From Casimicrobiaceae bacterium (GTDB lineage: Bacteria > Pseudomonadota > Gammaproteobacteria > Burkholderiales > Casimicrobiaceae): a DNA stretch of 64,000 bases. This document shows, one piece after another, positions 38,940 through 43,788 of this stretch. Made by a program: the position numbers and the translations under genes. Numbering within the stretch: the first letter of the stretch is position 1; every line of letters starts with the position of its first letter. A model generated the notes under the pieces. It was not told where the DNA came from and did no database searches. It worked only from the letters and a program-made list of their open reading frames with translations. Location: assembly GCA_026646885.1 (NCBI GenBank), contig JAPKHK010000006.1:62001-126000 (forward strand), in the 5' to 3' direction.

Positions 38940-39722
38940 GTGAAACACGTTCCGCGCCGCCGCTTTGGGCAGAATTTTCTTGTTGATGGGCATTATCTCG
39001 ATCGTATCGTCGCGGCCGTTGCGCCGAAAGCCGGAGAGCATCTGGTCGAAATCGGGCCGGGGATGGCCGCACTCACCCGGCGCTTGATCGCGCGCTGCGG
39101 GCGTATGACTGCGGTGGAGATCGATCGGGATCTGGTGGCGCATTTGCGCGCCGAGTTTTCACCCGAAGCGCTCGACCTGTTTGAAGCCGACGCGCTGGCT
39201 TTTGACTTTGCGCGCCTGGGCGAAGATCTGCGCATCGTCGGCAATTTGCCCTACAACATTTCAACCCCCATTCTGTTTCATTTGGCGGGTTTCGCGCCGC
39301 GCTTGCGCGACCTGCACTTGATGCTGCAAAAGGAAGTGGTGCTGCGCATGGCGGCCGCGCCGGGTACCGCGGACTATGGGCGGCTCTCGGTGATGCTGCA
39401 GGCGGGCTTCGCCGTGGAGAAACTTTTTACCGTGCCACCGGGGGCGTTTCGGCCGGCACCGAAAGTCGACTCCATGGTGGTGCGCCTCCAGCCGCTCGCG
39501 GAACGCGCCCCGCATATCGCCGACCCCCAGTTGTTTGCCGCGCTGGTGGCCGCGGCCTTCGGGCAAAGGCGCAAAACTCTGCGCAACGCCTTGGCGTCCT
39601 GGTTCGACGCGGCCGGTCTGGAGAGACTGGGCGTGAATCCGGGTGCGCGAGGCGAGACGCTTTGCGTGGCCGATTACGTGCGCCTGGCCAACGCGGTGGC
39701 GGTCAAGCCGCCGGTTCTTTAG
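38940..39722 (+). CDS. rsmA: 16S rRNA (adenine1518/1519-N6) dimethyltransferase RsmA (KsgA)
   Basis: Dimethylates two adenines in the 3' loop of 16S rRNA. 260 residues from GTG 38940: KHVPRRRFGQNFLVDGHYLDRI, EIGPGMAALTRRLI, NLPYNISTPILFHL and FRPAPKVDSMVV. The start was placed by family comparison, as longer frames upstream lack similarity. pdxA-rsmA is a widely conserved pair; here it is detached from surA-lptD. Its last 20 nt overlap the convergent permease gene. Confidence 0.95.
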   Translation: MKHVPRRRFGQNFLVDGHYLDRIVAAVAPKAGEHLVEIGPGMAALTRRLIARCGRMTAVEIDRDLVAHLRAEFSPEALDLFEADALAFDFARLGEDLRIVGNLPYNISTPILFHLAGFAPRLRDLHLMLQKEVVLRMAAAPGTADYGRLSVMLQAGFAVEKLFTVPPGAFRPAPKVDSMVVRLQPLAERAPHIADPQLFAALVAAAFGQRRKTLRNALASWFDAAGLERLGVNPGARGETLCVADYVRLANAVAVKPPVL

Positions 39723-40968
39723 GCTGCGACGCATCTTCGCGCCAGGGCGCGACTTTCAGCAGCAGCAGCATGCCGGGCACGGCCAGCAAGGTGCAGAGCA
39801 GGAAGAAATTGAACCATCCCATTTGTTCGACGATCCAGCCGGTGGTGGCATTGATCAGCGTTCGGGGGATGGCCATGAAGCTCGTGAACAAAGCAAACTG
39901 CGTGGCGGTATAGGGCGGGTGGGTGGCTCGGGCGATGAAGGCCACGAACGCGGCCGTCCCCAAACCCACGCCCAGGTATTCCGCACCGATCACCAGACCT
40001 AAGTCCCAGCCGTTGGGCTGAGGCAGCGCAGCAAGCCAGCCGAAACCCAAAATGGTCACCAGCTGCACCACGCCGAACACCCACAGGGCCCGGTTGATGC
40101 CCAGTTTCAACATCCACACCCCGCCCAGCAGACCGCCCACTACGGTCGCCCAGAGGCCGACGTTTTTGGCGATCAAGCCGATGTCGGTTTTGCTGAAACC
40201 CTTCTCGAGATAAAAAGGCGTGGATAGAGCCGTGGCCATGCTGTCGCCCAGCTTGTAGAGAAAAATGAAGGCGAGGATGGTGAACGCAGCCCCCCAGCCC
40301 GAGCGCTGAATGAACTCGCGGAAAGGTTCGACCACCGCTTCGCGCAGCGTCTTGGGGCCTTCCTTGGCGAGCTGCGGTTCGCTCACCCAGAGCGTCATGG
40401 CGATGCCGGGCAACATGAACAAAGCGGTGAAGAAAAACACCGACGACCAGGGCAGATGGTCGGCGAGGATCAGCGATAGAGCGCCAGGCACTAGCCCCGC
40501 GACGCGATAGGCGTTGATGTGCAGCGCATTGCCCAGGCCCAGTTCGGCGTCAGGCAAAATCTCGCGACGAAAGGCATCGAGCGCGATGTCTTGGGTGGCG
40601 CTGAAAAATGCGACCGCGGCGGCAAGGTACGCGATGGTCCACAAATCCTGGCCAGGCGAGAAAACGCCCAGCGCGGCGATGGAAGCCAGTAGTGCGATTT
40701 GGGTGGCGAGCATCCAGCCGCGACGGCGTCCCAGCGGCAGGGCATAACGATCGATAAAAGGCGACCAGAGGAACTTCCAGGTGTAGGGTAGTTGCACCAG
40801 AGCGAAAAGACCGATGGCCTTGAGATCGATCTGTTCGGTCTTCAACCAAGCCGGTACCAGGTTGATGAGGAGATACAGCGGCAGTCCGGAGCTAAAGCCC
40901 GTAAATAGGCAAATCAACATGCGGCGGTTGAACAACGCCTCACGCAGTGTCTGGCCCCAAGCGCTCAT
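39703..40968 (-). CDS. ampG: AmpG-type MFS permease (muropeptide transporter)
   Basis: 421 residues with 12 predicted hydrophobic segments. FTGFSSGLPLYLLINLVPAWL, LPYTWKFLWSPFIDRYALPLGRRRGWM and FFSATQDIALDAFRREIL match AmpG, which imports anhydro-muropeptides for recycling. Overlaps metW (ATGA), so it is the third gene of the metX-metW operon. Related acetyl-CoA transporters share part of the fold, so substrate is inferred. Confidence 0.85.
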   Translation of the reverse strand: MSAWGQTLREALFNRRMLICLFTGFSSGLPLYLLINLVPAWLKTEQIDLKAIGLFALVQLPYTWKFLWSPFIDRYALPLGRRRGWMLATQIALLASIAALGVFSPGQDLWTIAYLAAAVAFFSATQDIALDAFRREILPDAELGLGNALHINAYRVAGLVPGALSLILADHLPWSSVFFFTALFMLPGIAMTLWVSEPQLAKEGPKTLREAVVEPFREFIQRSGWGAAFTILAFIFLYKLGDSMATALSTPFYLEKGFSKTDIGLIAKNVGLWATVVGGLLGGVWMLKLGINRALWVFGVVQLVTILGFGWLAALPQPNGWDLGLVIGAEYLGVGLGTAAFVAFIARATHPPYTATQFALFTSFMAIPRTLINATTGWIVEQMGWFNFFLLCTLLAVPGMLLLLKVAPWREDASQPKEPAA

Positions 40969-41558
40969 CGACCAAGCGCCCGGCGGATGCGATAAACGGC
41001 CAAAGTGCCCAAGCAGTTGGGCAGCAGCTTAACTTCCTGTCCGTCATGCAACACGCGCCTATCCAAAACCTCGAGTTGACGCTGGGCACAGAAATCGTCG
41101 AAGTCGTGCACGGTGCACAGGTGGATGTTCGGCGTGTCGTACCATTGGTACGGCAGATCCTTGGAAACCGGCATATGCCCGCGAAGAATTTGCCAACGGT
41201 GTTTCCAATGCCCGAAATTGGGGAAGCTGACGATGGCCTCGCGGCCCACGCGCAGCATCTCCAGTACGATCTCTTCGGTGTGGCGCATCGCCTGCAAAGT
41301 CTGCGAAAGAATCACGTAATCGAAGGATGAGTCTTCAAACCCGGAAAGGCCGGCCTCGAGGTTGCTTTGCACCACCGAAACGCCGTTCTTCACGCAAGCG
41401 AGCACCGAGGCGTCGTCGATTTCCACGCCATAACCGGCAACCTGCCGGTGCTCGCGCAAGTAGGCCAGTAAGCCGCCATCGCCGCAGCCCAAGTCCAACA
41501 CCTGCGCTTGGGGGCGAATCCATTCGGCGATCAAGGAATAATCGGGGCGGATGTTCAT
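40965..41558 (-). CDS. metW: Methionine biosynthesis protein MetW
   Basis: SAM-dependent methyltransferase-like protein of 197 residues, with [26 protein letters not shown] and [12 protein letters not shown]. MetW works with MetX in homoserine acylation in proteobacteria. Overlaps both metX and ampG by four bases. Confidence 0.96.
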
Positions 41559-42706
41559 GACGATAGCTCCGCCGCGATGCGGTCGAAATAGGCCCGCACC
41601 AGGGCGTGGTAGCGCGCGTCGTCTAATAGAAACGCATCGTGGCCGTGCGGCGCATCGATTTCGGCGTAGCTCACTTCCCGCCGATTATCGATGAGCGCCT
41701 TGACGATTTCTCGCGAGCGCTGCGGAGAAAAGCGCCAGTCGGTAGTGAAAGAAACCACCAGAAAGCGCGCTCGCGCAGGTTCCAGCGCGCGCCGCAAATC
41801 GCCGCCAGAAGCCGCGGCGGGGTCGAAGTAGTCCAGCGCTTTGGTGATGCGCAAGTAGGTATTGGCATCGAAGTATTCGGAAAACTTGTCACCTTGATAG
41901 CGCAAATAAGATTCGATTTGGAACTCCGGCTCGAAGCTGTAGCGCAGGCCGTTGCGCAACTGGCGCCCGAATTTTTCGGCCATCTGATCATCGGAAAGAT
42001 AGGTGATGTGGCCGATCATGCGTGCGACGCGCAAGCCGCGGCGGGGCTTGACGGCGGCCTCATAAAAGTGCCCGGCATGAAACTCCGGGTCGGTCATAAT
42101 GGCGGCGCGCGCCACCTCATTGAAGGCGATGTTCTGGGCCGACAAATTGGGTGCCGCGGCGATCACCAGCGCATGCGCCACGCGCTGCGGGTGACGGATG
42201 GTCCAGGCCAGCGCTTGCATGCCCCCGAGGCTCCCGCCCATCACCGCGGCAAAACTGGCGATGCCCAGATGATCGGCGACGCGCACCTGGGCATCGACCC
42301 AGTCTTCCACCGTCACCACGGGAAAGTCCGCGCCGTAGGGCTTGCCGGTCGCCGGGTCGAGATCCATCGGTCCGGTGGAGCCAAAACACGAGCCGAGGTT
42401 GTTCACCCCGACGACGAAAAAGCGACTCGTATCCACCGGCTTGCCGGGCCCTACCATGTTGTCCCACCAACCCTCGCTGTTGGCTTGATCGGCATACACC
42501 CCGGCGACGTGATGCGAGGCGTTGAGCGCATGGCAAATCAGAACCGCGTTGTCGCGCGCGGCATTCAGTTCGCCATAGGTCTCGATCATCAGATGATAAG
42601 GTCCGAAGGCGCGCCCGCAGGCGAGCGGCAGCGGCTCTGCAAATTCGACGCGCTGCGGCGTGACGACACCGACAGCCCCGTTCGGAAAGGGTGGAGCAGG
42701 GGGCAT
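41555..42706 (-). CDS. metX: Homoserine O-acyltransferase MetX
   Basis: First committed step of methionine synthesis. 383 residues, alpha/beta hydrolase fold: [14 protein letters not shown], nucleophile in [12 protein letters not shown], late Asp in FTTDWRFSP and His in [11 protein letters not shown]. Start ATG 42706 follows a GGGATC stretch just after the leader terminator; the longer frame would read through that terminator. In MetW-linked forms the acyl donor is often succinyl-CoA, which the sequence alone cannot settle. Confidence 0.97.
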
Positions 42707-42718
42707 GGAGATCCCAAC

Positions 42719-42752
42719 AAAAAAAGCCCGACCAGCTTGGCTAATCGGGCTT
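42719..42752 (-). terminator. Intrinsic terminator in the metX leader
   Basis: On the minus strand: AAGCCCGA, a 13-nt loop TTAGCCAAGCTGG, TCGGGCTT and a run of T, ending 13 nt before the metX ATG. Its location in a leader rather than after a gene implies conditional attenuation. Confidence 0.9.
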
Positions 42753-42753
42753 C

Positions 42754-42831
42754 TCACCTCGCTTTAGCAGTTTTTGCGGCGACCCGATCTTCGGCCGCTG
42801 CGCGCCCGCAAGCTGATCTCAAATCGGCGCC
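42754..42831 (-). promoter_or_regulatory. SAM-II-type riboswitch upstream of metX
   Basis: Minus-strand leader RNA with the SAM-II layout. P1: GCGCC (42826-42830) with GGCGC (42802-42806). Loop 1 carries GATTTG and then TCAGCTTGC (42808-42816), which pairs 8 of 9 with GCGAGGTGA (42754-42762) after the conserved GCTAAAG (42762-42768), forming the pseudoknot P2. Between P1 and GCTAAAG an extra hairpin is possible (GCGGC 42794-42798 with GCCGC 42776-42780), longer than usual. Gene context (metX), promoter and terminator all agree with SAM repression of methionine synthesis. Confidence 0.82.
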
Positions 42832-42836
42832 CCGCA

Positions 42837-42865
42837 AAGTTACCGGGAGGGGGGGCGCTTGTCAA
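42837..42865 (-). promoter_or_regulatory. metX operon promoter
   Basis: Minus strand: perfect TTGACA (42860-42865), 17-nt spacer with a C7 tract, TAACTT (42837-42842). Transcription would begin near 42830, exactly where the riboswitch P1 starts. Confidence 0.75.
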
Positions 42866-43035: not shown

Positions 43036-43788
43036 ATGCGTGCTAAGACCTATTGGTTACTGCTGGTTGTCGTGCTGATTTCCGCTGGGGCAAAAGTGGC
43101 GCAAGCGCAGTCGAGCTGGGCCACCTTCGCTTATAGCATTGCTTCCAGTTGTGGCGGCAGTTGTGACACCCAACTCCAGCTCGCCACCAACACGGGCCCG
43201 GTTACCCTGACCGCCACCAACCGCGGTTGGGTCAGTTCCACGGGTCTCAATAACGGCGCCAGCGCAACCAACAATTACATCGCCGGTTTCTGCAGCAGCG
43301 CCGACACCTGTAGCGGCGGAAACTCGCTCTGGCGAAACTGGTTTGCGTTTGCCTTGCCGGTGGGGGGGTTCTCGACGATTTCATCCGCCACTCTGCTGCT
43401 CGATGTGCCGGCGCCGGCGGCTCCAGCTCAAGGGGTCTATAACTTTGGCGGTACGCTCACCTATACCGTGTGGGACGTGAGCAGCGCACCCGCCACGTTT
43501 ACCGGCAGCGCCGCCGGGCTCGCCGAATATAACGATCTGGGGACGGGGATTGTCTACGGTTCGCGCGTTTACCTGCGCAGCGATGAGGGAACGGTGAGCT
43601 CGGTGCCGCTCAATGCCGCGGCGGTCGCTTGGCTCAATACGCAGATCGGCCAGACGGTCGTGCTGGGCGGTGCTGCTGACCTTCTCCCCTATGGCGCCAT
43701 CCCGACGCTTTCGCCTGCGGGCCTTGCATTGCTTGCTTTGCTGGTGCTGATTGCCGCGAATCTGACGCGACGCCGCAGAAAAGCGTGA
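43036..43788 (+). CDS. IPTL-CTERM sorted surface protein, function unknown
   Basis: 250 residues. Signal peptide 1-24 (ending KVAQAQ). The body is Ser/Thr/Gly/Ala-rich, with four cysteines in two near pairs (SSCGGSCD and FCSSADTC) and beta-rich stretches. The C-terminus IPTLSPAGLALLALLVLIAANLTRRRRKA is the tripartite IPTL-CTERM signal: IPTL motif, membrane helix, basic tail. Such tails direct proteins to an exosortase-like surface-sorting system; no sorting enzyme is in the window. Strong GAGGAG site upstream. The body resembles no family I can name. Confidence 0.88.
   Translation: MRAKTYWLLLVVVLISAGAKVAQAQSSWATFAYSIASSCGGSCDTQLQLATNTGPVTLTATNRGWVSSTGLNNGASATNNYIAGFCSSADTCSGGNSLWRNWFAFALPVGGFSTISSATLLLDVPAPAAPAQGVYNFGGTLTYTVWDVSSAPATFTGSAAGLAEYNDLGTGIVYGSRVYLRSDEGTVSSVPLNAAAVAWLNTQIGQTVVLGGAADLLPYGAIPTLSPAGLALLALLVLIAANLTRRRRKA

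Follow-up and report, generated by a model that had tools for sequence, protein, structure and literature searches.

We analyzed a window of 64,000 nucleotides (nt) from a Casimicrobiaceae bacterium (contig JAPKHK010000006.1, positions 62,001 to 126,000), in which an RNA element on the minus strand (42865-42719) precedes metX. This gene (41555..42706, minus) encodes a homoserine O-succinyltransferase-type MetX (NF047916, 663 bits, cutoff 560) and is followed on the same strand by metW (40965..41558; TIGR02081) and by a gene for an ampG-family muropeptide transporter (39703..40968; TIGR00901), with an ATGA overlap at each of the two junctions. A preliminary description of this DNA had proposed an S-adenosylmethionine (SAM) riboswitch of the SAM-II type before metX, with its own promoter and terminator, and comparative evidence now backs that proposal. 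From the sequence comparisons, the element is very probably a SAM-II riboswitch variant with a P3-like hairpin in loop 3 that would switch off transcription of metX-metW, and probably also of ampG. The comparison supports this assignment through the aptamer, the promoter position, the terminator, the hairpin and the methionine gene context.

Read along the minus strand, the element begins with a -35 box, TTGACA (42860..42865), and, after a 17-nt spacer, a poor -10 box, TAACTT (42837..42842), which has three of the six consensus bases. Transcription would start at about 42830, that is, at stem P1, whose 5' strand is GCGCC (42826..42830) and whose 3' strand is GGCGC (42802..42806), giving a stem of five base pairs (bp). 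Loop 1 contains GATTTG (42820..42825), the third strand of the SAM pocket with letters identical to those of the Rfam SAM_alpha consensus, and the 5' strand of the P2 pseudoknot, TCAGCTTGC (42808..42816), with A42814 bulged. Loop 3 consists of an inserted 26-nt hairpin, GCAGCGGCCGAAGATCGGGTCGCCGC (42776..42801; fold z -3.05 against shuffles), and an A-rich remainder, AAAAACT (42769..42775). The 3' strand of P2, GCTAAAGCGA (42759..42768), contributes to the SAM pocket and includes GCTAAAG (42762..42768), and an intrinsic terminator follows (42719..42753), a 14-bp stem and a T run with a folding energy of -21.6 kcal/mol. The P1 stem, GATTTG, GCTAAAG and the terminator named in the preliminary description are therefore all present on this strand.

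The promoter that it had read, TTGACA-17-TAACTT with a start at P1, was absent from a generic promoter scan of the window. The letters are there, and their arrangement is conserved in relatives: in 45% of 167 related elements, and in 1.1% of shuffled ones, the -10 box lies 3-9 nt ahead of P1 and at least 9 of the 12 promoter bases agree with the consensus. Corbino 2005 (PMC1273637) places the SAM-II promoter likewise, with the start at P1.

Conservation of the aptamer core and the pseudoknot register

We searched 250 genomes of the order Burkholderiales for the pattern GATTTG-AGCTTGC-GCTAAA and found it in 116 of them; the reversed pattern occurred zero times among the matches listed. The elements take two forms with an identical core, one hairpin-free, with a loop 3 of ~12 nt and AAATnnn at its end, and one hairpin-bearing, to which the window element belongs; an AAATnnn-like tail is found in both. 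Aligned with one another, 47 hairpin-free elements are invariant in GATTTG, AGCTTGC and GCTAAA, although by construction, since the collecting pattern fixed those letters; it put no constraint on the outer pairs of P1 or on the outer pair of P2. P1 is paired in 99.6% of the cells of this alignment, with two of its pairs changed on both sides, and the canonical P2 register, GCTTGC/GCTAAAGCGn, is paired in 93.9%, its outer pair appearing as UA, CG, UG and AU. Altogether three pairs in P1/P2 are changed on both sides among these hairpin-free sister elements, whose letters the window matches, and the covariation score was equalled by none of 500 shuffles. Compensatory changes in P1/P2 among relatives, which the preliminary description had suggested looking for, thus exist. 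Its own P2 register did not hold: an 8-of-9 pairing of TCAGCTTGC with GCGAGGTGA can be drawn but is unconserved, with 66.2% of cells paired, and was rejected as P2 in favor of the register that uses GCTAAAGCGA.

The window element shares with SAM-II (RF00521; Corbino 2005) P1, GATTTG and CTTGC in loop 1, an A-rich loop 3, GCTAAA, the P2 register, the promoter at P1, the terminator and the methionine genes. All letters of the SAM-II pocket (GATTTG, CTTGC, GCTAAA) are in place. It differs from RF00521 in its 26-nt loop-3 hairpin, its sub-cutoff Rfam score and its betaproteobacterial host.

A hairpin in loop 3

The hairpin (42801-42776) had been overlooked in the preliminary description, and it departs from the single-stranded loop 3 without P3 that characterizes SAM-II. 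In the 117 elements whose loop 3 is long, the inserts fold with a mean z of -2.12 against shuffles (81 below -1.5), while control DNA upstream of the same elements gives a mean z of -0.06. The hairpins have 95 different outer stems; nearly all start 0-2 nt past P1 and most end 6-13 nt ahead of GCTAAA. In L011, from a sister species, the 5' arm carries two changes, read by eye, that preserve or improve the pairing. Most likely, the hairpin is a peripheral difference that lies outside the ligand pocket and leaves it unchanged.

A scan of named genomes returned at least 116 stretches with the long loop-3 form, a few of which were parsed as plain elements. They are mainly beta- and gammaproteobacterial, and the matches listed include Undibacterium, Limnohabitans, Methyloversatilis, Derxia, Polynucleobacter, Curvibacter and Rhodoferax among the Betaproteobacteria and Legionella, Solimonas, Salinisphaera and Marinomonas among the Gammaproteobacteria. 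The hairpin-bearing form is common in its group, and it has been described in part earlier under other names. Some titles in this set, e.g. that of an Alistipes metagenome-assembled genome (MAG), look like contamination; the element-bearing contigs L126, L148 and L177 are titled as Alistipes and Bordetella parapertussis MAGs, and the L126 bin is probably mislabelled or contaminated because betaproteobacterial metX-metW-ampG lies on it. At the other extreme of length, four SAM-II-like elements (L071, L072, L219, L233) have a very short loop 3, GGGCGTTAAACTGCTAAA, and that of L071 precedes metN.

The position of the hairpin recalls SAM-V, whose P3 is likewise flanked by P1 and the A-rich strand (Huang and Lilley 2018, PMC6061858); the same authors state that SAM-II lacks P3. 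SAM-V also has its H-type pseudoknot core in common with the window element. That the element is itself a SAM-V riboswitch is nevertheless hardly credible. Neither the window nor six sister loci yielded a match to the SAM-V model (RF01826) up to E 5-10, although SAM_alpha did match there, and SAM-V acts on translation by occluding the ribosome-binding site, whereas the window element is coupled to a terminator. As a SAM-II variant, it joins many natural examples with a SAM-V-like P3 that should be useful for understanding how SAM-II and SAM-V are related. In the text of the papers we found no description of a hairpin within SAM-II; the drawings of Corbino 2005 or the alignment of Leyn 2014 may already include an optional loop-3 insertion.

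Covariance-model scores and the ligand

At curated Rfam thresholds nothing was listed for the window. Scoring above the SAM_alpha cutoff, a check that had been proposed earlier, failed: at a relaxed threshold the window reached 15 bits against a gathering cutoff of 36 bits, with only P1 and loop 1 matched. This low score weighs against our assignment, as do the properties of the window antiterminator given in the next section. The score falls below the cutoff because the 26-nt hairpin sits in loop 3, and as the 36 bits were set by curation for a hairpin-free model, the shortfall lowers the formal filing only. Consistently, none of 20 hairpin-bearing loci passed the cutoff versus 6 of 20 hairpin-free loci, and 8 of 41 related genomes reach it, with several of the matches directly before metX. 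The loop-3 hairpin would thus explain why SAM-II goes unannotated by Rfam in Burkholderiales, Legionella and others. Weak Rfam matches to M23, NsiR1, RybB and Ms_IGR-8 were far under their cutoffs and were set aside as chance or terminator matches.

We also used a custom covariance model trained on the 47 hairpin-free elements, from which the window and all hairpin-bearing elements had been left out. It scored the window element at 38.2 bits (E 3.9e-9 in 99,840 bases), one of only three convincing matches in the 4.0-Mb genome; the two other copies are hairpin-free and scored 75.5 and 73.1 bits. In the 250 genomes of the order the model found matches in 189 genomes and in 98 of 121 genera, with up to four copies per genome. 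The preliminary description had singled out the betaproteobacterial setting as of interest, SAM-II being best known from alphaproteobacteria; by these counts the setting is not exceptional, and SAM-II had already been noted in beta-Proteobacteria in 2007 (PMC2258182).

The sub-cutoff score could alternatively mean that the hairpin marks a separate class, a SAM-II relative with a changed ligand such as S-adenosylhomocysteine or another methionine-pathway compound. Ligand-switched variants do exist in other classes, as from SAM-I to spermidine (PMC10853860), and the 2014 account of the metXZ element, discussed below, named no ligand (PMC4239095). We consider a changed ligand unlikely, given that the core letters are identical with and without the hairpin, that sister elements lacking the hairpin, located before metX, score above the SAM-II cutoff, and that the target genes serve methionine biosynthesis and uptake. 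We infer that SAM is the ligand.

The terminator and a model for switching

Terminators follow 128 of 169 elements, versus 6 of 169 shuffled ones. In 56 of the 128, the P2 3' strand (GCTAAAGCGn) forms a better pairing with the 5' arm and loop of the terminator than with shuffled arms (p<=0.05), and in 53 there is pairing of the loop-1 strand with the loop and 3' arm; wrong combinations of strands gave 6 and 9, and reversed strands 8 and 24. Across the group there is thus good support for the first of these pairings, and less for the second, since the loop-1 strand is close to a palindrome.

These pairings suggest the following attenuation model. The polymerase would begin the transcript at P1, and abundant SAM would bind the loop-1/P2 triplex and lock the pseudoknot of GCTTGC with GCTAAAGCGA, the hairpin standing in for part of loop 3 on the stretch from P1 to the A-rich strand. 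With the pseudoknot locked, the downstream terminator would be free to form ahead of metX, and metX would be off. When SAM is scarce, the strands released from P2 would pair with the terminator arms, and the polymerase would read through.

In the window copy the antiterminator is a proposal. Its GCTAA/TTAGC pairing is weak, with a five-bp core and p 0.11. A second pairing, GATCAGCTTG/CAAGCTGGTC, comprises ten bp and is strong against shuffles; the reversed control is equally good, and we discount it for that reason. Folding without pseudoknots gives -49.2 kcal/mol for the terminator fold versus -40.1 kcal/mol for the best antiterminator fold, a gap of 9 kcal/mol, so that switching would require kinetic control or help from tertiary contacts.

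That energy alone favors the terminator fold would also suit a real aptamer that controls metX translation next to a constitutive or incidental terminator, and some SAM-II switches do control translation, such as that of S. meliloti metA (PMC9373788). This arrangement is very unlikely here, as the metX ribosome-binding site lies beyond the terminator and outside P2, and the terminator position is conserved among the elements.

Relation to the metXZ element and to RF02424

Leyn 2014 (PMC4239095) reported a 'novel' metXZ RNA with a pseudoknot and terminators ahead of metXW or metZ in 35 beta-proteobacterial genomes; there, SAM_alpha is confined to Rhizobiales and Rhodobacterales, and the ligand of metXZ is left unnamed. 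The elements described here match it in targets (metXW or metZ), taxa, pseudoknot and terminator. Because they fit the published descriptions, we take metXZ, compared here by its description, to be SAM-II and very likely the same element as ours, and it thereby gains a concrete ligand hypothesis.

The opposite strand of the element matches RF02424 (Bp2_287), filed in Rfam as a Burkholderia small RNA (sRNA), at 24.9 bits (E 0.0013), short of the cutoff of 70 bits. As a homologue in B. cenocepacia, RIT77, is listed as expressed (PMC10987360), the locus could be read as a plus-strand sRNA gene instead of a riboswitch. We regard this as highly improbable. RF02424 matches occur in 80 of the 250 genomes, and a SAM-II element lies on the opposite strand in all of the best 20 loci; in one genome (G141), where RF02424 scores 107.5 bits, the hairpin-bearing SAM-II strand reads into metZ and has a purF-like gene (by eye) behind it. 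Furthermore, the promoter, the T-run terminator and the methionine genes all suit the minus strand. RF02424 covers the same DNA, filed on the other strand, and is probably the antisense of SAM-II elements and their terminators, in which case a correction of the Rfam entry may be due.

Taken further, the P3-bearing form could be a widespread, undescribed SAM-II subtype linking SAM-II to SAM-V, which serves as a methionine switch in numerous betaproteobacteria and some gammaproteobacteria, covers both metXZ and RF02424, and works as an attenuator with both P2 strands as antiterminators. We hold this broader proposal to be evenly poised between right and wrong.

Downstream genes, other copies and neighboring features

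The place of the element agrees with that of SAM-II before methionine and SAM genes: metX follows it in the window and methionine genes follow it in relatives. Altogether 86 parsed elements precede metX, and sampled others precede metZ, metH, metN, metY-like and PRK05939-type genes. Control extending to ampG is plausible because both gene junctions overlap by ATGA. Among the relatives, L237, L240 and L242 keep the order metX-metW-ampG, and L239 and L241 do not, so ampG is not downstream of metXW in every relative.

Elsewhere in the genome, the hairpin-free copy L051 (G000:C12:194167-194229, minus) stands before a gene for threonine ammonia-lyase (TIGR01127, above cutoff), which is an unusual target, and a genome of the same genus (L053) also has an element of this kind. 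Copy L052 (G000:C34:246596-246658, minus) stands before a PRK05939-type gene of the cystathionine gamma-synthase family (NF004609, above cutoff).

Tandem SAM-II elements 98-168 nt apart were seen in L006 (1515, 1683), L056 (970, 1124), L073, L100, L154, L192 and L007; tandem arrangements are already known (PMC9481103). In L006 and L056 a terminator comes after the first element, and the second element contains GAGGAG ahead of a possible start codon and so may act on translation. Finally, a divergent open reading frame of 250 amino acids (43036-43788, plus) lies between metX and a ptsI-family gene; it has no NCBIfam match, and its end, read by eye, resembles an IPTL-CTERM-like sorting tail.
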